Positions 51,353 through 61,609 of a stretch of 64,000 nucleotides of DNA are shown here, piece after piece (within the stretch, counting starts at the first letter, position 1; each line of letters opens with the position of its first letter). This DNA is from Agrobacterium tumefaciens. Its GTDB lineage: Bacteria; Pseudomonadota; Alphaproteobacteria; Rhizobiales; Rhizobiaceae. A program made the translations under genes and the position numbers. The DNA is taken from NCBI GenBank assembly GCA_025560025.1, contig CP048485.1:62001-126000 (forward strand). The letters are read 5' to 3'. A model generated the notes under the pieces. That model had not been told where the DNA came from and did not search any database. It worked only from the letters and a program-made list of their open reading frames with translations.

Positions 51353-51426
51353 GCGGGTGTAGCTCAATGGTAGAGCAGCAGCTTCCCAAGCTGAATACGA
51401 GGGTTCGATTCCCTTCACCCGCTCCA
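51353..51426 (+). tRNA. tRNA-Gly (anticodon CCC), probable integration site
   Basis: Acceptor GCGGGTG pairs with CACCCGC, discriminator T, encoded CCA at 51424-51426. Anticodon loop TTCCCAA holds CCC at 51385-51387, and the T-arm has GTTCGATTC. An integrase gene starts 164 bases downstream in the same direction, the usual layout of an island inserted at the 3' end of a tRNA gene. Confidence 0.96.
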
Positions 51427-51459
51427 GCGACCTTTCCAACAAGATCAACGAGGTCCAAC

Positions 51460-51484: not shown

Positions 51485-51548
51485 CCTCGCGCGCGCGTAA
51501 GTTCGTGCAACGGTATGCAGTGACATCCAGCAATTTTGTCGGTAAAAA

Positions 51549-51588
51549 TTACGGTATTCGTCATCGTGGTAGGAAGCCGATACCGTAA
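51549..51588. promoter_or_regulatory. Inverted repeat abutting the integrase start
   Basis: TTACGGTAT (51549-51557) recurs inverted as ATACCGTAA (51580-51588), ending one base before the integrase ATG. It could be an operator or an arm-type binding site through which the integrase limits its own expression. Confidence 0.4.
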
Positions 51589-51589
51589 A

Positions 51590-52810
51590 ATGGCACTGAC
51601 AGACATTCAGGTTAAGAACGCCAAAGCCGACAGCAAACCGCGCAAGCTGTCCGATGAAAAGGGGCTTTACCTCTACATATCGGTTGCGGGTGGCAAGTCC
51701 TGGCGCTTCGATTACGATTTTTTCGGCAAGCGAAAAACACTGACGATTGGGGTATATCCAACCGTAGGCTTGGCGGATGCTCGAAGATTGCGTGATGAAG
51801 CCAAGAAAAAACTCGCTGAGGGTTTGGACCCGTCGTTGGCCAAGAAACGCGATCAGCTTGCTGCCAAGGCCGCTGCCGGAAACACCTTCGGCATAATTGC
51901 AGATGAGTTCATTGAAAAGCTGAAACGCGACAAGCGCGCAGAGCCCACAATCACTAAAAACAAATGGATGTTGAAGGACCTCGCCGAAAAGCTTGGGCCT
52001 TATCCGGTTACTCAGATTTCGGCGCGTGACGTTCTTGCTGTGCTGACCAGCATTGAGAAGAGCGGCCGTGTGGAGAGCGCACTGGCTACTCGCGCTGCCA
52101 TCGGTCGAGTGTTTCGCTACGCCATCGCAACAGCGAGGGCCGAGAATGATCCGACGTCGGCATTACGCGGGGCTCTCCAACGCCATGTGCCGGTCAATCA
52201 TGCCGCCTTGACGACGAAGGTTGAGATGGGCGGCCTGATGCGGGCTATTTACGGGTATGAAGGGTGGCCTTCTTTGGTTGCGGCCTTGAAAATCCAAGCG
52301 TTATGTTTTGCTCGTCCCGGTGAGACACGTTCAATGCAGTGGACGGAGTTGGATTTTGATGCCGCCGTTTGGACCATTCCTGCCGAAAAAACGAAAATGC
52401 GCAGGGAGCATCATGTGCCCCTCTCGACACAAGCGGTAGAGGTTCTCACGGAGATGAAGGAGCTGTTTGGCAATAAGCCCTATGTCTTTCCTTCAATGAT
52501 GTCTGGCAAAGAGATTCTTTCCGAGAATTCCATGAATTCGGCCTTGCGGCGGATGGGGGTCACAGAGGCGCAGCATACCGCCCACGGATTTCGTTCTTCC
52601 GCCAGCAGCATTTTGAACGAGTCTGGTGAATTCAGTGCCGACGCGATCGAGGCCCAGCTTGCACATCTCGACACGCAGTCGGTGAGGCGCATCTACAATC
52701 GAGCCAAATACTGGGAGGAAAGAACGCTTATGATGCAATGGTGGGCAGACCTACTAGATCGTGAACGAGCCTACCCACCGCTAGGTAACGGTCATAGTAA
52801 TTCGTTATAA
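51590..52810 (+). CDS. int: Tyrosine-type site-specific integrase (P4-like)
   Basis: The N-terminal ~90 residues form the Arm-DNA-binding domain of P4-like integrases (KLSDEKGLYLYISVAGGKSW). The catalytic domain has Arg in FARPGETRSMQW, HTAHGFRSS (HxxR), and the nucleophile Tyr in RRIYNRAKYW. ATG 51590 begins with the usual ALTDIQVKNAK; the frame is open from 51536. It probably inserts the island at tRNA-Gly. Its last 19 bases overlap vsr on the other strand. Confidence 0.92.
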   Translation: MALTDIQVKNAKADSKPRKLSDEKGLYLYISVAGGKSWRFDYDFFGKRKTLTIGVYPTVGLADARRLRDEAKKKLAEGLDPSLAKKRDQLAAKAAAGNTFGIIADEFIEKLKRDKRAEPTITKNKWMLKDLAEKLGPYPVTQISARDVLAVLTSIEKSGRVESALATRAAIGRVFRYAIATARAENDPTSALRGALQRHVPVNHAALTTKVEMGGLMRAIYGYEGWPSLVAALKIQALCFARPGETRSMQWTELDFDAAVWTIPAEKTKMRREHHVPLSTQAVEVLTEMKELFGNKPYVFPSMMSGKEILSENSMNSALRRMGVTEAQHTAHGFRSSASSILNESGEFSADAIEAQLAHLDTQSVRRIYNRAKYWEERTLMMQWWADLLDRERAYPPLGNGHSNSL

Positions 52811-53196
52811 AGTCTCGAACGAAGCGTCGCGATATCGCGCGTTTCGCACTCCCAAATTACTAGCGATTTCCAACCAAGCGATTTAAGCGCTTCCTGAGCG
52901 GCCGCATCGCGAGCCACGTTCGCCCGAAACTTCTCTTCCCAAAAATCGACGCGGCTTTTCGGTGTCGACGTTTTCTTGCAGTTCGTATGGCGGTGCCAAA
53001 AGCATCCGTGCACAAAGATCACGATCTTTCTGCGCCGGATTACCATATCTGGCGTTCCCGGCATGCCCTTACAGTGAAGCCGATACCTGATACCCATGGA
53101 GTACACAAGCCGTCGGACCACTAATTCAGGAACGGTGTTTTTGCTTTTGACCCGCGCCATTATTGATGAGCGCTTTTGAACTTCCGCCGCGTCCAT
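52792..53196 (-). CDS. vsr: Very-short-patch mismatch endonuclease
   Basis: Vsr nicks next to T:G mismatches made when 5-methylcytosine deaminates. The family signature is complete: RSSIMARVKSKNTVPEL, the zinc and active-site region GTPDMVIRRRKIVIFVHGC, then FWHRH, and late SLVIWECET. ATG 53196 begins MDAAEVQKR as usual; a TTG at 53211 lies upstream. It is divergent from two cytosine-5 methyltransferase genes, whose damage it should repair. Its 3' end overlaps the integrase gene. Confidence 0.93.
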   Translation of the reverse strand: MDAAEVQKRSSIMARVKSKNTVPELVVRRLVYSMGIRYRLHCKGMPGTPDMVIRRRKIVIFVHGCFWHRHTNCKKTSTPKSRVDFWEEKFRANVARDAAAQEALKSLGWKSLVIWECETRDIATLRSRLYNELL

Positions 53197-53383
53197 TGAT
53201 TTCCAAGGCAATTAAAATCAGACTTAAATGATATCAAGTGAATGTGGCAATAGTCAGTGTTGGATTAACCATTCGACTTTGATAACCATAACGAATCGAT
53301 CACTGATTACGATAAGGACGTATGATTTGCTCGCTTTTCGCGACGTGCCTGTGGTTGGAGAGGGCTTACCAAAATCGGAGCTC

Positions 53384-54544
53384 ATGAATGCTCTCGACGA
53401 TTACAATTACTTGAGGCTGGCTGGCCGGCCAGTCCAGACAAACGTTAAAGGGGTTTTCACGTACGTGGACCTCTTCGCCGGCTGTGGCGGAACAGCTCTT
53501 GGCGTCGAAGAGGCGTGCCGGGCGGTGGGTTTAGCGACCTCCGTTCCCTTCGCTATTGATAACAGTGCTGCGGCCTGTGCTGTATTTAGAGACAATTTCC
53601 CTTCCGCAAACTTGCATCAAGGGGATGTCGGGGACTTTTTCGAGGCAGATCTAGATGCTCCGTTAAACTCGGTGGAAATTGAGCTCGCAAAGAAGGCTGG
53701 GAAAGTTGACTTAGTTATTGGAGGACCACCCTGTCAGGGTCATTCCGATCTAAATAACTACTCGCGCCGAGCGGACCCAAAAAATGCCTTATACAGTACC
53801 CTTGCTCGCGCTGCGAAAGTGTTCAGGCCTCGGCATGTTATCATAGAGAACGTACAAGGCACGCCGCACGACAGAGCCGGTATATTTCAAACTACCGTTA
53901 ACAATCTAATAGGACAGGGATACCATGTCGAATTCGGACTAGTCGATTTATCTCGGCTTGGTGTTCCACAGACTCGTCGTCGTCACATTGTGGTGGCGTC
54001 TCTAGAGTTCGCGCCGCCGTCGATCCCGAAAATAGTCCAAGAAAATGAGGTAACCGAGCGTCGCGATGTTCGCTGGGCGATTGGTGATTTGCTAAAAACC
54101 GCCAGCACGAAGCTTGTTGACCAACCCTCGAAGCCCTCGAAAGACAATGTTCGGCGTATTGAATACCTTTTCAATAATGGGCTTTATGATCTCCCAAATT
54201 CGGAACGCCCACCTTGCCATAGAGATAGAAAGCAGACCTACAACAGCGTGTATGGGCGCCTCAAATGGGATTTGCCGTCTCAAACAATTACGAGTGGGTT
54301 TTATAGTATGTGTATGGGCCGTTATGTGCATCCTGAAAAATATAGGACACTGACTGCGCATGAAGCAGCAAGGCTCCAATGTTTTCCTGATTTCTTCTCG
54401 TTCGAGGCGGCCGGTAGCAGAACAGCTATAGCGACATTGATTGGAAATGCAGTTCCCATGAAGCTTTCATACGCAATTGTGCGATCGCTCCTTAATATTC
54501 AGAAGATAGAGAGAGAGCCAGTTCAGAAGGTTGATAAACTATGA
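53384..54544 (+). CDS. DNA cytosine-5 methyltransferase 1 of a LlaJI-like system
   Basis: All key C5-methyltransferase motifs are in order: I DLFAGCGGTALG (about residue 29), IV GGPPCQGHS with the catalytic Cys, VI IIENVQG, VIII PQTRRRH and X IGNAVP. It should methylate one strand of an asymmetric site. The frame is open from ATG 53228, but the first 52 codons look non-coding and would crowd the divergent vsr promoter; GGAG before ATG 53384 favours the shorter form. It overlaps the second methyltransferase by ATGA. Confidence 0.88.
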   Translation: MNALDDYNYLRLAGRPVQTNVKGVFTYVDLFAGCGGTALGVEEACRAVGLATSVPFAIDNSAAACAVFRDNFPSANLHQGDVGDFFEADLDAPLNSVEIELAKKAGKVDLVIGGPPCQGHSDLNNYSRRADPKNALYSTLARAAKVFRPRHVIIENVQGTPHDRAGIFQTTVNNLIGQGYHVEFGLVDLSRLGVPQTRRRHIVVASLEFAPPSIPKIVQENEVTERRDVRWAIGDLLKTASTKLVDQPSKPSKDNVRRIEYLFNNGLYDLPNSERPPCHRDRKQTYNSVYGRLKWDLPSQTITSGFYSMCMGRYVHPEKYRTLTAHEAARLQCFPDFFSFEAAGSRTAIATLIGNAVPMKLSYAIVRSLLNIQKIEREPVQKVDKL

Positions 54545-55662
54545 AAGTCGCTGGCTTATTTGCGGGTATCGGCGGGTTCGAGGTGGGTCTGAGCAAATCA
54601 GGACACGAAGCAGCCTTTTTCTGTGAGCTTGATCCGGCGGCAGCGTCAATTTTACGGCGGCGTTTTCCCGGCGTAGAAATTCAGTCCGATATACGAACAC
54701 TGGGCTCGTTGCCTAGTAACATCGATCTAGTTACAGCGGGATTCCCTTGTCAGAACTTAAGTTCCTCGGGTCTCAAAGCTGGAATAACGGGTACCCAGTC
54801 GTCACTTGTGAGTGAGGTGTTCCGTTTGCTCGAGTCGCGGCCAGTAGAATGGGTCTTGATCGAGAATGTTCACTTTATGCTTCATCTCAACAAAGGCGCA
54901 GGAATGCGGGCAGTCGTCGAAGGTCTAGAGCAATTGGGATATTCTTGGGCATATAGACTGCTCGACACAGAGTCGTTTGGCCTACCTCAACGTCGGCGCA
55001 GGGTGTTTATCTTGGCCAGCTTGAACCATGATCCTAGAAACGTCTTGCTTTCTGAGGACGCGCCGGCGGCTCCAATTCGTGAGCTAAGCATTCAACAGCC
55101 GGTTGGTTTTTACTGGACCGAAGGCACATACGCGACCGGGTTAGCCGCGAACTCGGTGCCGCCGTTGAAAGGTGGCTCTACAATTGGAATACCGTCTCCC
55201 CCGGCGATCATGATGCCTGATGGACTTGTGGGTACGCCTGATATTCGTGATGCCGAACGTCTACAAGGATTTGCCGAGGATTGGACGAACGATCCAGCGG
55301 TAGGGCGTTCCTCGTTTCGTTGGCGACTTATCGGCAATGCAGTATCTGTAAACGTCTCAGCTTGGCTTGGTTCGAAGCTTGCTTCGCCAGATAGATACGA
55401 TCACCAAAACGATGACCCAATTTCGTCCGATGAATGGCCGAATGCTGCGTGGAACGTCGGTGGAGGCAAGTATAAGTCGCGCGCATCGTCAAGACCGTTA
55501 CTCGGTGTCGAAGCCGGACTAGGTGATTTTTTACGTCACCCACTAAAGCCTCTATCCGCGAAAGCAACAAGTGGTTTCTTGAAGCGTGCTAGAAAAGGCA
55601 ATCTGAAGTTTCCAGAAGGGTTCCTCATTCGTTTGGACCGGCATTTAAAACATTGCGCTTGA
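54541..55662 (+). CDS. DNA cytosine-5 methyltransferase 2 of a LlaJI-like system
   Basis: The second enzyme has motif I LFAGIGGFEVGLS, IV GFPCQNLSSSG, VI LIENVHFML, VIII GLPQRRRRVF and X IGNAVSVNV. The C-terminal ~80 residues extend past motif X and may take part in target recognition. Two unlike C5-methyltransferases in tandem imply an asymmetric target with each strand served by its own enzyme. It is coupled to the first by a 4-base overlap and to the downstream AAA gene by a ribosome site overlapping its stop (TTGAGGGA). Confidence 0.88.
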   Translation: MKVAGLFAGIGGFEVGLSKSGHEAAFFCELDPAAASILRRRFPGVEIQSDIRTLGSLPSNIDLVTAGFPCQNLSSSGLKAGITGTQSSLVSEVFRLLESRPVEWVLIENVHFMLHLNKGAGMRAVVEGLEQLGYSWAYRLLDTESFGLPQRRRRVFILASLNHDPRNVLLSEDAPAAPIRELSIQQPVGFYWTEGTYATGLAANSVPPLKGGSTIGIPSPPAIMMPDGLVGTPDIRDAERLQGFAEDWTNDPAVGRSSFRWRLIGNAVSVNVSAWLGSKLASPDRYDHQNDDPISSDEWPNAAWNVGGGKYKSRASSRPLLGVEAGLGDFLRHPLKPLSAKATSGFLKRARKGNLKFPEGFLIRLDRHLKHCA

Positions 55663-55671
55663 GGGAAACAC

Positions 55672-57147
55672 ATGAAAGATCTTACTGCTCCTCTTCCGCA
55701 ACCCGTCTTGTCTGAGCTCGATGGAGCATTGGAAAGTCTTAAGGACGCAAATCGTAGATCCAATACGAAGGGAAAGCCCCTCAAAGATTGGTTTAAAGAT
55801 AACCTCGGCCACGAAACAGCCGTCACCTACATTACCGCCGACAACCAAATAGGGAATCGTTTTAAGGAGCAGCGAGGAAAACTCGCACCATACACCATTT
55901 TCTTTTTTGTCGATGAGAAGCTAATAGGTCGAACCAAGGCGAAGATTGGCGAATACGTATACCCGGAGTTGGAGGCGGCATTTTTCTTCATTTACGACAA
56001 AGGCCAGAAAACATACAAATTGCCGTTGGTTCTGACCAGAAATCCTGATGATCAAATAGTGCTACGCCTTGTCGCTGACAAAGGGGATCAATATACGGCG
56101 ATCCAAGCTTTACCAGTAGCAGTTGGTGGTAAGGCTGACAACGTTAATAAAACCTTGGGCCATACCAAGGAGAAAATCGATCTAGTCGGCATAGACGGTG
56201 CAATTGCACAGGCGTCGGCAAGTATCAATGCGGGCAAGCACGTTATCCTCTTGGGGCCTCCCGGAACAGCAAAGACTGAATTGGCCGAGTTGCTTTGCCA
56301 GAATTTCAATACCGATTATGTGTTGTCTACCGCGACTGCGGAATGGAGTACATTTGAAACTATTGGAGGGTATCTGACCTCTCTGACGGACGAAAGCACA
56401 GAGCTTGATTTTCAAGCTGGAATTGTGACAAGCAGCATAAAAGATGATGTATGGCTCATCATCGATGAGTTCAACCGGGCAGATATGGATAAAGCGTTCG
56501 GGGAGCTTTTTACAATCCTTTTGGGCAAAACGATTGATCTGCCGTACAAGAAACGTACGGGCGCGGGTGCGAAACCTGTGCAAGTTGGCCCGGACGCCTC
56601 TGAGATTAATCGGTATCCCATTCGTCTTTCATCGAACTGGCGTTTGATTGCCACGATGAATAGTTTCGACAAAGCTAGCTTAGCTAGACTGTCGCTAGCG
56701 CTCATGCGGAGGTTTGCAATTGTCCATGTTGATCCTCCGCCGCCAGATAAATACGAAGAGCTCCTGTTGAAATTCGCAGCTTCAAGAGCGCCGACGATGT
56801 CAAAAGCCGATAGTGCTTTCAACGATTCGGTCGGTCATTTGGCCGCATTGTTTGCGCGAGAAACGGTTGGCAGTTTCCGGCGGGCAGATATACATATCGG
56901 GCCCGCTATCCCTCTCGACTGTATCAAATACTTTGCGTCCAGGTTAACGCAAGACGAAAGCTTGCCCCCCTCCGCGCTGACAACTGAGGCGGTTACCAAC
57001 TATTTATTTCCGCAATTCGAGGGGCGCGACGACATTCATTCAGTCGTGATAGATAGTTTGGTGTCTGTCGTTGGGTTGGATGAAGCTGAGAAAAAAATCG
57101 CTTCCGATAGGCTGGCTGTCTTTACAGGGTTCAGACGAGCTCGATGA
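55672..57147 (+). CDS. McrB-like AAA+ NTPase, restriction subunit R1 (LlaJI/BsuMI type)
   Basis: The N-terminal ~180 residues form a region without recognised motif, probably target-recognising. The AAA+ domain has Walker A GPPGTAKTE (residues 195-203), Walker B WLIIDEFNRADMDK (about 262-275) and sensor MNSFD (329-333). The last resembles the MNxxD motif that gives McrB its GTP preference. It should move DNA or switch on the nuclease encoded next, with which it overlaps by ATGA. The 491-residue length matches R1-type subunits. Confidence 0.85.
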   Translation: MKDLTAPLPQPVLSELDGALESLKDANRRSNTKGKPLKDWFKDNLGHETAVTYITADNQIGNRFKEQRGKLAPYTIFFFVDEKLIGRTKAKIGEYVYPELEAAFFFIYDKGQKTYKLPLVLTRNPDDQIVLRLVADKGDQYTAIQALPVAVGGKADNVNKTLGHTKEKIDLVGIDGAIAQASASINAGKHVILLGPPGTAKTELAELLCQNFNTDYVLSTATAEWSTFETIGGYLTSLTDESTELDFQAGIVTSSIKDDVWLIIDEFNRADMDKAFGELFTILLGKTIDLPYKKRTGAGAKPVQVGPDASEINRYPIRLSSNWRLIATMNSFDKASLARLSLALMRRFAIVHVDPPPPDKYEELLLKFAASRAPTMSKADSAFNDSVGHLAALFARETVGSFRRADIHIGPAIPLDCIKYFASRLTQDESLPPSALTTEAVTNYLFPQFEGRDDIHSVVIDSLVSVVGLDEAEKKIASDRLAVFTGFRRAR

Positions 57148-58421
57148 TTTCAAAGAGACAACGCTGGGCAGACTTCATCTGTCATCCAAGTCGTCCAACG
57201 CGCTACCTTTCTGGACTCAGCGATACTGTAGGAATAACCGTTCAGCCCATTAGCGATCCCACGTTCGTTGACTTTGTGAACAAGCTCGCGGCTGGGAATG
57301 ACGACGGCAGCTTACTTATAGACGCCCTGGACTACGCTTTCGGTGGGTACCATGACTTTCTCGATAGCAGGCTGAAAGCTCTTCTTAGAAGTTTGTCGAA
57401 CACAAGCGGAAGAGAGCAGACTGTGGTTGGTCCAGCAATTAAGGGTACAGTGGATTGGCCACGCACGCTTACTGGACGTGCAACAAGTAGACTTCCCGAG
57501 GGACGTTTCGTGGTAGGGCGACCCTTCAAGTCTTTTGACCTCCCCGAAAATCGACTTCTGAGTTATTTTCTTTTGAATATCGTAAGCGATATCAACCGCT
57601 TGACAGATGCACTCGGCAGTGGGGCTTTGATTGCAAAGTATAGCGAAATGCGCCGAGCTGGAGAAGCTGGACTACGTGATTTCAACCTTCGCAAAGTTTC
57701 AAAGGTTGTCAGTCCTACTTCCGTGATGCTGAATGAAGCACGGTCAGCTAGAGACGTGTCATACCGGGAGCTTGCGGCGTTAGTTGAACGAAGAGAGGCA
57801 ATCACTTCTCAACGCTCGATTGGTAAGCTTGAGGCAGTTTTGGAGTTGGTGAGGACTGGTTGGCTTGCTCCCGTGAGTGATGACAATCTATTTGAAGTAT
57901 ATGCACTTGCGGTTGTTCTTGACGTACTCGCGAATGAGTGTGGATTGGGACAACCAACGCAATATGGTCTCGTCACAAAAAAGCGAATGCATGTGGCACG
58001 TTTCACGTCAAATGGTCTTATCGTGAACGTTTATTATAATCAGTCGCCATCTTCTATTTTTGGGCTTAAATCGAGATATCGGCGGGTGGTGGACGGATGG
58101 GAGGGCCTTACCGGTGGAGAGCGTCGTCCCGATATCATGTTAGAGTTCCTACGAAACGGCTCGAGACACGTGCTGTTGATCGAATGTAAACGTTCTGATG
58201 ATGACGGCTACAGAAGAGACAGTGTCTACAAAGTTTTTGGATACTTATACGACTTTCAAGATTTGTGGCCTCGAAGTGACTTGCCCAAGACCGCCCTAAT
58301 TATGCCGGATGGATTAAAGGCAACGGGCCAATCAGGAGGGTCGTTGGATATAATGTTGATTTCCGGAGATCAGCGGGCGCAATTTTTTGCAGTAATCGAG
58401 CATATTATTAGTAAAATGTAG
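57144..58421 (+). CDS. McrC-like PD-(D/E)xK nuclease, restriction subunit R2 (LlaJI type)
   Basis: The C-terminal domain carries a PD-(D/E)xK active site: D330 in RRPDIMLEF and E347/K349 in LLIECKRS. The N-terminal ~250 residues are of the McrC/DUF2357-like type (DLPENRLLSYFLLNIV, the PENRLL motif typical of McrC-like proteins). Together with the AAA subunit it should cut unmodified target DNA. It is the last gene of the four-gene operon, coupled to R1 by a 4-base overlap. Confidence 0.82.
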   Translation: MISKRQRWADFICHPSRPTRYLSGLSDTVGITVQPISDPTFVDFVNKLAAGNDDGSLLIDALDYAFGGYHDFLDSRLKALLRSLSNTSGREQTVVGPAIKGTVDWPRTLTGRATSRLPEGRFVVGRPFKSFDLPENRLLSYFLLNIVSDINRLTDALGSGALIAKYSEMRRAGEAGLRDFNLRKVSKVVSPTSVMLNEARSARDVSYRELAALVERREAITSQRSIGKLEAVLELVRTGWLAPVSDDNLFEVYALAVVLDVLANECGLGQPTQYGLVTKKRMHVARFTSNGLIVNVYYNQSPSSIFGLKSRYRRVVDGWEGLTGGERRPDIMLEFLRNGSRHVLLIECKRSDDDGYRRDSVYKVFGYLYDFQDLWPRSDLPKTALIMPDGLKATGQSGGSLDIMLISGDQRAQFFAVIEHIISKM

Positions 58422-59218: not shown

Positions 59219-60045
59219 ATGGTAGTATTATTGACAAAGCCATTTGGGACTTTCTCAAACAAGGATTTGCCTCACGGGATGATCGAGCGACTTGATAAAA
59301 TTCCACCTAGCAAGGATTTGGTCGCTTTCTTAGCGAGCGTGTCTGATCTATTCACACGCTTGCGACTATGGGTCGAAGCTAATGGGGAACAAATTCTTTC
59401 GGTAGCGCGTGTCGCGCACCGAAATATTATTTTTGAGAAGGCGGGATGGCTTTTGCACCATACCACTCCACTCCATCTGATAACCGATGATATGACAGAG
59501 CATGACATCACGCCGATACTTGAAGCATATTATCTGGAGAGTTGGTCAGATATCGCTGTGGCATTCCGAAACCGTGTGGGGGAGATGAACCTAGACAAGG
59601 AAGCTCGAGCCGCGTTTGAAGAAGCTCTGCTCGCCCATGGCCGGGGCTCTACCGTGCAGCTATACGCGTTGTCTTCCCGGAAATAGAACGCATCGCCCGG
59701 GACCAGTTGCTGGAGGGCACGCTTGAAGGGATAGCCAGCCTAAAAGAAGTACGTCAAGCTGCCGGAGAACTGGGTTGGGGTGAGTGGCAGAAATTTGACG
59801 AGGACCCGATATTTGGTCAATTCACGGTGATGTCATACCATCTCTACGAAGTTGCAAAAACGCGCGAAAGAATTGCCCAGTTAGCATATTCGCCCATTCC
59901 TAACCGTCACGCCGCACTACATGGTTTAATTGCATACAATAGCCTCCAGAGCAGCGTGTCGGCAATAATCATGGCGGAGTTCATGTTCAAAGCCATATCG
60001 ATTCTCAGGGATCGGCCTAAGACGCAAATGTGCGGTCTGCTATAA
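59219..60045 (+). pseudogene. Frameshifted HEPN-like gene
   Basis: Two open frames, 59219-59686 and 59707-60045, read as one protein of about 275 residues if a single base is restored near the GGGG at 59643-59646. In the second frame the codons just before 59707 give PGLYRAAIRVVFPEIER, which continues naturally from EEALLAHGRG in the first. The C-terminal part has NRHAALHG, an R-x4-H motif (Arg codon 59905, His codon 59920) of HEPN type. The function is unknown. One base appears deleted; real decay, a sequencing error or programmed frameshifting are possible. Confidence 0.65.
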
Positions 60046-60370
60046 ATCGCTTTGGCAGCATGATACGTTGCGTTGTTTCAACGATGGCTCTACGAAGAAT
60101 AGCACAAATAGCGCTATTTAGGCCAGTTTTCTATTTCGCAGCATAATATTACAACAGCTATCAGAAATAGAGATAAGTGGATTGACTTGCGAATTGTGTC
60201 TTGACCAAGGTATAGATCGGAGTCGAGATGGAATATTCTAGACGGCTTTGGTTTCAATGCTTGCCGTCATAGCCCAAGCCGGACAACTGAGACGTTTTGT
60301 GGTCCTTTAAACATCCAGTGGTCACCATCGTTGGCCAAATTGATCCAGGATGCAAGCAGGGAGAACATTT
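60046..60370. other. AT-rich gap between the HEPN-like genes
   Basis: These 325 bases contain no gene I can support. They are AT-rich and probably carry the promoter for the next two genes. No clear hairpin or repeat was seen. Confidence 0.5.
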
Positions 60371-60904
60371 ATGCGCGAAATCGAAGGAATTAAAGAGGCA
60401 ATGAAACTCCTCGAGCCGTACTGGACTGACATCGAGGACGACTTCCTTCACCACAATACGCGTTTTCTGGAGCTCGCCGCTACAGATCACGACATACTAG
60501 GTCGCGTGCTCCGATCTCACTTAGTCGTCGAAAATTTCCTAAACAGCTATCTGCAGGCGACATTTGGTTTCGACGACTTAGATGATCTCCGGCTATCGTT
60601 CGCGCAGAAAGCGAAGATGCTTCCTTCCGCCCAAGCGAGCGCAGCTTTCATACGTCCCGGCGTCATCCAACTCAACAAAATTCGAAATAAGTTTGGGCAC
60701 ACGCTGACGCATGCCATTGAACTAGCTGAGATCAATTTGATCACCCAGATTCTCGATATCGCGAGACCGAGCACGACGTTCGCGGAACCCATCGAAGCTA
60801 TCGAGGCGTTCGCGCCTATCGCATGCGCTTTTCTTTCAGTGCCACCAAAGCATCTGGAGGAGGCTCTTCTAGAAGCATTCAAGACTGTTCGCTGGGAGAG
60901 TTAA
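60371..60904 (+). CDS. Small HEPN-like protein of unknown function
   Basis: The 177-residue, mostly helical product is not recognised at family level. It contains KIRNKFGHTL, an R-x4-H motif (Arg105, His110) followed by helix, as in HEPN RNases such as those of toxin and defence systems. The preceding HLVVENFLNSYL is a helix also usual in HEPN folds. ATG 60371 is preferred; the frame is open from 60350. Its stop TAA is directly followed by the ATG of the next gene, so the two are coupled. Confidence 0.6.
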   Translation: MREIEGIKEAMKLLEPYWTDIEDDFLHHNTRFLELAATDHDILGRVLRSHLVVENFLNSYLQATFGFDDLDDLRLSFAQKAKMLPSAQASAAFIRPGVIQLNKIRNKFGHTLTHAIELAEINLITQILDIARPSTTFAEPIEAIEAFAPIACAFLSVPPKHLEEALLEAFKTVRWES

Positions 60905-61609
60905 ATGGACCTGGCTTATTGGACACGACAGCGCACCGACATCATTCGGCTATTCTACGATAAGGGGCGCGTTCCTTTCGAGCAACTCAAACGCGATATC
61001 GAGGAAGAAGTGCGGCCATGGGAGCCGCCCTACTTCAACCCCGAGACCGATAATCCGGAGCCAGCGTTCCTCGCCGAGTGGATGCAAGCGGATCAGACCC
61101 GCGAGCTAATCGGGATGCTGGCGGTGTCCCTACTTGCGGATACCTTGAGCCTTTATTTTGTAGAGCTTGAACGTGAGATCGGCATCGCGTTCGTTGATCC
61201 TAAAGAGCGTATCGCCCTGTTCAAGCTAGGGAAGGTCGAGGCATATCGTCAGATAATCCAGCAAGTCTTGGGCGATGCGTTCGAAAACTGCCCTGTAAGA
61301 TTCGACGTCATCGAGCAGGTGATTCTCGCGCGCAATGATTTTGCTCATGGCCAAGATTTCATATCGTTTCAGACGATGCACAATCAACGGACCATCGAAA
61401 AGCATCCAAATCCATTCTTCACCAACACAAAAGAGTCTCTCGCCGAAGGAGACATCCCAGACTGGCGACGCCTTTCAATCGAAGTCAGCCGTGAGAAGCT
61501 GATGGCAGCTATCGATGAGGTGGAAAAGTTAGCAGATTGGGTGGATCGGAACGAAGAAGCCGTGTGGGAATGGCGCGCCGAGATGAAGGCCGTCAAAGAC
61601 AGTAAATAA
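60905..61609 (+). CDS. Second HEPN-like protein of unknown function
   Basis: This 234-residue helical protein starts immediately after the previous stop. It contains ILARNDFAHGQ, again an R-x4-H motif (Arg143, His148), preceded by a helix with FDVIEQV. The C-terminal ~60 residues are charged and helical (AIDEVEKLADWVDRNEEAVWEW). It is probably co-expressed with its partner. RNase activity is inferred only from the motif. Confidence 0.6.
   Translation: MDLAYWTRQRTDIIRLFYDKGRVPFEQLKRDIEEEVRPWEPPYFNPETDNPEPAFLAEWMQADQTRELIGMLAVSLLADTLSLYFVELEREIGIAFVDPKERIALFKLGKVEAYRQIIQQVLGDAFENCPVRFDVIEQVILARNDFAHGQDFISFQTMHNQRTIEKHPNPFFTNTKESLAEGDIPDWRRLSIEVSREKLMAAIDEVEKLADWVDRNEEAVWEWRAEMKAVKDSK

Follow-up and report, generated by a model that had tools for sequence, protein, structure and literature searches.

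An Agrobacterium tumefaciens defence island with unnamed protein families bearing an invariant HEPN-type motif, including a remote homologue of the prophage protein HepS

HEPN proteins are typically dimeric RNases in which the arginine and histidine of the motif lie in the cleft between the subunits, according to the available parts of PMC11087260 and PMC13092281; general HEPN context is given in the corresponding parts of PMC13017927, PMC13092281 and PMC9122126. One described phage-linked example is Tha, presented in the available text of PMC11087260 as a tail-activated HEPN anti-phage system of Staphylococcus prophages. Another is HepS, with PDB entries (9oij, 9oik) whose titles name the Gifsy-1 prophage of Salmonella Typhimurium 14028 and the state 'bound to bacteriophage lambda J Tail Tip'. 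Here we compare with these systems three genes, designated A, B and C, from a 64,000-nt stretch of A. tumefaciens contig CP048485.1 (the window, whose numbering is used throughout). A preliminary description of this DNA had read them as three successive, co-operating genes with an R-x4-H motif. Their features are as follows:

59219..60045, + strand: gene A, in two frames (N-terminal 59219-59686, C-terminal ~59620-60045), from an uncharacterised family of ~300 amino acids (aa)
60371..60904, + strand: gene B, a 177-aa HepS-like HEPN protein with motif RNKFGH, R105 (60683) and H110 (60698)
60905..61609, + strand: gene C, a 234-aa HEPN-type protein with motif RNDFAH, R143 (61331) and H148 (61346)

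None of the three families has a name; each keeps its HEPN-type motif invariant and is ordinary in kind. The reading that we favour, and hold to be probable, is that B and C are separate stand-alone HEPN RNases gathered in a defence island, with B working like HepS.

Gene B and its kinship with HepS

Searching the PDB with the B family profile returned HepS at E = 2.4e-4 and its variant HepS-H105A at E = 0.012, and beyond these one match at E = 8.2. In the profile alignment RNKFGH of B stands over RNKYAH of HepS, and H110 over H105; since that histidine reads alanine in 9oik (HepS-H105A), H110 corresponds to the residue mutated by the HepS depositors. The alignment identifies B as a remote homologue of HepS, motif histidine included. 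HepS is known here from its PDB titles and aligned sequence, and is 18% identical to B in structural alignment. A literature search found no paper that uses the name HepS for this Gifsy-1 protein. The available text of PMC9879122 describes an HEPN gene, STM14_3211, in Gifsy-1 of strain 14028s and does not contain the name HepS; the two may be the same gene. That of PMC12724215 concerns a different Gifsy gene.

Conservation of the motif in the B family is complete. In an alignment of B with 73 of 120 listed relatives (at least 137 were found), R-N-x3-H is kept in 74/74 rows, and R-x4-H is present in all 31 fetched loci carrying B. Fetched loci of relatives are labelled L0xx; motif counts from them partly concern the same proteins as the family alignments, and the pairs L064/L065, L068/L069, L003/L056, L036/L037, L011/L039 and L023/L042 are near-copies, hence non-independent. 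The best matches of the predicted B fold are HEPN proteins, and the predicted structure is a helical bundle whose motif helix (95-110) holds R105 and H110 at its end. A second R-x4-H, R45/H50 (60503-60520), lies in the helix preceding the motif helix and is likewise invariant (74/74), as is E54; together with the motif helix, these residues may form a composite active site. In HepS the R45 and H50 positions read A and N, the R45 column standing at a weak edge of the alignment. An alternative start at 60350 would add 7 residues to B, an extension with no counterpart in any of 27 other alignment rows, and the likely start is therefore 60371.

By record titles, the B family spans Alpha-, Beta- and Gammaproteobacteria and a few other phyla. 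Its members have hardly been named: one relative (P0101) is labelled RiboL-PSP-HEPN by its source, no other functional name occurs among the 120 relatives listed, and HEPN_RiboL-PSP weakly matches 3 of the 74 rows (best E = 0.009). Relatives of B are present in 9 IMG/VR viral contigs, and the B relatives of L036-L039 and of the Rahnella contig L011 have an integrase-like gene 1.1-1.7 kb upstream of them. Together with the kinship to one remote relative, HepS, this mobile setting points to B as an RNase that a structural protein from a phage turns on. B would most likely be a dormant, dimeric, metal-independent RNase with its site at R105/H110, which an infecting phage would switch on inside the cell through one of its structural proteins; once activated, it would cut RNA, growth would stop and the infection would abort.

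Tha offers an analogy for such a scheme, in that, as far as the available text of PMC11087260 goes, it too is a phage-borne HEPN gene with R-N-x3-H, the tail-protein trigger being that of Tha. Membership of the Tha family was rejected for all three genes, as Tha-1 aligned to the three families with hhalign probabilities of 0.9, 0.3 and 0.3%.

MtlR and YggD, which we take to belong together (3brj, 6kcr, 3c8g), are a further point of comparison, and B might accordingly be read as a non-catalytic, MtlR-like RNA-binding regulator. The full motif kept by B, in every alignment row and every fetched locus, makes this improbable, as does the PDB profile search, which finds HepS and no MtlR protein among its sequence matches at E<=10. 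Moreover, the neighbours of B here are restriction-type genes, and an MtlR-type gene setting was not seen in its island.

The genes around B relatives differ from locus to locus, and no family of neighbours within 5 kb recurs in more than 6 of 30 B loci (the window included; the same survey also covered 6 C loci, and its reading-frame filter missed L021, L034, L031 and L043). A 275-285 aa gene (MTMCVFWKD...) overlaps or touches the B relatives of L011 (5150-6007) and of the viral contigs L036-L039, and in the viral contig L040 its kin lies 67 bases ahead of the B relative; the L011 copy has no Pfam match. In L027, the B relative overlaps or touches an upstream 266-aa gene with three hydrophobic segments. 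The upstream gene of L012, ~90 bases from B as measured to the family start, was not counted as tight. In L008 (6655-10539) a defence-type neighbour, a 1294-aa SIR2_2-domain protein, is found 96 bp downstream of the B relative.

Genes C and A and the weight of the motif

Gene C shows the same pattern of conservation. In an alignment with 41 of its 46 relatives, R-x4-H and the N after R are both present in 42/42 rows, and among fetched loci R-x4-H is found in 17 of 18, the exception (L031, which with L032 is one place) being a copy split across two frames. The predicted fold of C also has HEPN proteins as its best matches, at moderate match quality; R143 is inside the predicted motif helix (133-147) and H148 immediately follows it. 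HEPN_RiboL-PSP weakly matches 5 of the 42 rows (best E = 0.025), the PADLOC family RTasHEPN weakly matches 3 of 42 (best E = 0.009), and one relative (P0153) is labelled DUF4145 by its source. Relatives of C occur in plasmids and viral contigs; a BFVD fold search of C gave nothing informative, and an additional viral scan with close C relatives returned only L043, which was already known. Motif and fold suggest that C, too, is most likely an RNase, of abortive or toxin type.

Gene A did not stand as a third intact gene, since its segment 59219-59686 and the motif-bearing segment ~59620-60045 are in different reading frames. The only relative found with the C-terminal piece besides its own genome among 289 class genomes is an intact 313-aa open reading frame (L045:958-1899), on which the two pieces map contiguously, the match of the N-terminal one ending at position 1494 and that of the C-terminal one beginning at 1504. 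As both pieces map to one intact frame, A is a broken copy, or there is a sequencing error near 59640. A third R-x4-H family is represented here, either by a remnant or by a mis-sequenced copy. Its motif, NRHAALHG, is in the C-terminal frame (R = CGT 59905, H = CAT 59920). R-H-x3-H is invariant in that family, H following R in all 30 rows (28 of 120 listed relatives, with 458 found, plus the L045 frame and the window C-terminal piece). Tha resembles this family in length and in its C-terminal motif (301 aa with R265/H270, against 313 aa with R269/H274 in A). A PDB sequence search with the A family gave weak matches, none covering the motif region. The C-terminal piece matched its own genome alone among 297 order genomes and gave nothing informative against viral contigs, and neither tblastn of the pieces against plasmids nor searches of the intact relative against plasmids and phages were informative. 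In L045 (958-3367), an MmeI-type methylase/restriction gene directly follows the intact relative, so that family A, too, can adjoin restriction genes.

The codon positions given for the three motifs in the preliminary description were reproduced exactly, and its proposal that the proteins have HEPN folds held for B; C has fold matches of moderate quality, and A has weak PDB matches with none at the motif. By itself, however, the motif is weak evidence, because at least one R-x4-H appears in 25% (A C-terminal piece), 31% (B) and 21% (C) of shuffled sequences. It is the invariance of R-x4-H across each of the three families that places it beyond chance. The available text of PMC3710099 puts the HEPN motif at the end of helix 3, and the placements in B and C agree with this. 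The dissimilarity of the three proteins was borne out, no sequence homology being detected between the families (hhalign probabilities B-C 0.1, A-C 0.3 and A-B 0.2%). Searched singly, the A pieces, B and C stayed below the cut-off in Pfam and NCBIfam and matched no PADLOC family at E<=1, family members giving scattered weak matches. B and C match PHROGs of unknown function; searches of both against phage records gave nothing informative, and scans for promoters and terminators did not rise above chance.

Co-occurrence of B and C and the genes preceding C

The stop codon of B (TAA 60902-60904) is followed directly by the ATG of C at 60905, confirming the exact abutment noted previously. The co-operating set that had been proposed from this layout was not borne out. 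Among 397 order genomes B is found in 3 and C in 4, with both in their own genome alone, and among 270 class genomes either gene occurs in that genome only. When genes were located by tblastn, the homologues of the genes at 60371 and 60905 were together in 0/39 fetched loci (31 with B, 8 with C), and C was absent from 19/19 other genomes carrying B; these were drawn from a contig scan in which genome completeness is not given, with the 397-genome order survey as positive control for C. Because B and C fail to co-occur, a three-gene set is unsupported, and we reject it: the two are never together beyond their own genome in the sets examined. Adjacency of B and C would then reflect assembly of the island, not an ancestral two-gene system.

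The alternative most directly suggested by the abutment is that B and C function together as a two-gene HEPN system in which C, as effector or regulator, has a swappable first gene, here B. The neighbours of C vary, and a tight same-strand gene directly precedes it in 4 of 19 loci. In the window this gene is B (gap 0). In L029 (1489-3237, - strand) a DUF4238 gene abuts a C relative that is 71% identical, again with gap 0 and the same stop-start layout. In the other two loci C lies behind an RNxxxH protein of a further family, D (gap 2 in L031, ~12 bases in L043), which was found in 15 plasmid records, 5 of them fetched. Its copies of 216-250 aa carry the motif RNALAH:

L031:1869-2609, - strand: family D gene preceding C
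L043:1863-2595: family D gene preceding C
L057:2501-3253: family D gene, plasmid locus
L060:2501-3151: family D gene, plasmid locus
L061:2501-3151: family D gene, plasmid locus

D is itself directly followed by other second genes, SduA_C (Shedu) in L057 and Abi_C in L060, which would fit exchange of partners. It weakly matches the HEPN family pEK499_p136 (E = 0.067, L061 copy), and no homology of D to B or C was detected (hhalign probabilities of 0.1 and 0.3%, the aligned D-C segment being the motif itself). Against such a system, B occurs with C in this island alone across all sets examined, and 15 of the 19 C loci have no convincing tight first gene; this was judged by eye, doubtful cases, mostly short reading frames at 10-35 bases, being set aside, and in several of these loci C has a gene of a phage or plasmid at a distance of 60-202 bp. 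The C copy of L031 is broken and the D reading frame of L043 is disturbed. Finally, D is tightly followed in only 2 of the 5 fetched plasmid loci: in L058 the next gene, for an AAA ATPase, is 205 bases away, in L059 the distance is 190 bases, and in L061 the next gene is on the opposite strand. We therefore regard a two-gene system of B and C as unlikely, though not negligible. A looser arrangement is somewhat more doubtful still: C may be part of a modular defence layout of gene pairs, with small R-N-x3-H (HEPN-like) genes in first place, effectors in second and free exchange of both, the first gene sensing infection for, or restraining, the effector that follows.

Two small abutting genes could also be a toxin-antitoxin pair of an HEPN toxin and its neutraliser, and toxin-antitoxin systems commonly contain HEPN domains, as stated in the available text of PMC3710099. 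This is very improbable here, given that B and C both retain the full active-site motif, that neither matches a nucleotidyltransferase and that each is found without the other elsewhere. HEPN toxins of HEPN-MNT pairs (7ae2, 7ae6, 7ae8) and the HEPN protein 4nqf are absent from the PDB sequence matches of C, which differs from them in the long segment that separates its motif helix from the final two long helices. No nucleotidyltransferase match was found among the neighbours A, C, the resolvase and the GmrSD-type gene.

The integrative island and what B and C may represent

The genes are cargo of a ~21-kb island inserted in the chromosome at a tRNA-Gly gene, delimited by direct repeats spaced 21,043 bp apart:

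51353-51426: tRNA-Gly(CCC)
51407..51430, + strand: attL-like 24-bp direct repeat, overlapping the tRNA-Gly(CCC) 3' end
51536..52810, + strand: tyrosine integrase (PF13356, PF22022, PF00589), ~106 bp after the repeat
72450-72473 in window numbering (outside the window; G000:C1:134450-134473): second 24-bp repeat

The integrase is followed by a restriction-modification operon (52792-58421), a serine resolvase, A, B, C, a GmrSD-type gene on the opposite strand and, later, the second repeat, in agreement with the flanks originally described except that the resolvase stands between the operon and A. The operon encodes the nuclease Vsr, two C5 cytosine methylases, an AAA ATPase and a protein that matches DUF2357 below threshold, a layout that we take to resemble LlaJI-type restriction systems. 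Within the window the cargo has a G+C content of 0.49-0.53, compared with 0.59 to its left. DNA of B and C is present in 1 of 39 same-genus genomes, their own, and absent from a same-species genome.

What remains of interest in this locus is the kinship of B with HepS, accompanied by an additional invariant R-x4-H pair, and the recurrent, exchangeable first genes ahead of C. If first-gene exchange were true, it would connect Shedu and Abi_C effectors with HEPN-like partners. As a remote homologue, B extends the range of HepS-like proteins, hitherto one enterobacterial prophage, to a family of at least 137 proteins and, because its second R-x4-H was not seen in HepS, would be a direct test case for the generality of tail-tip sensing in this fold.
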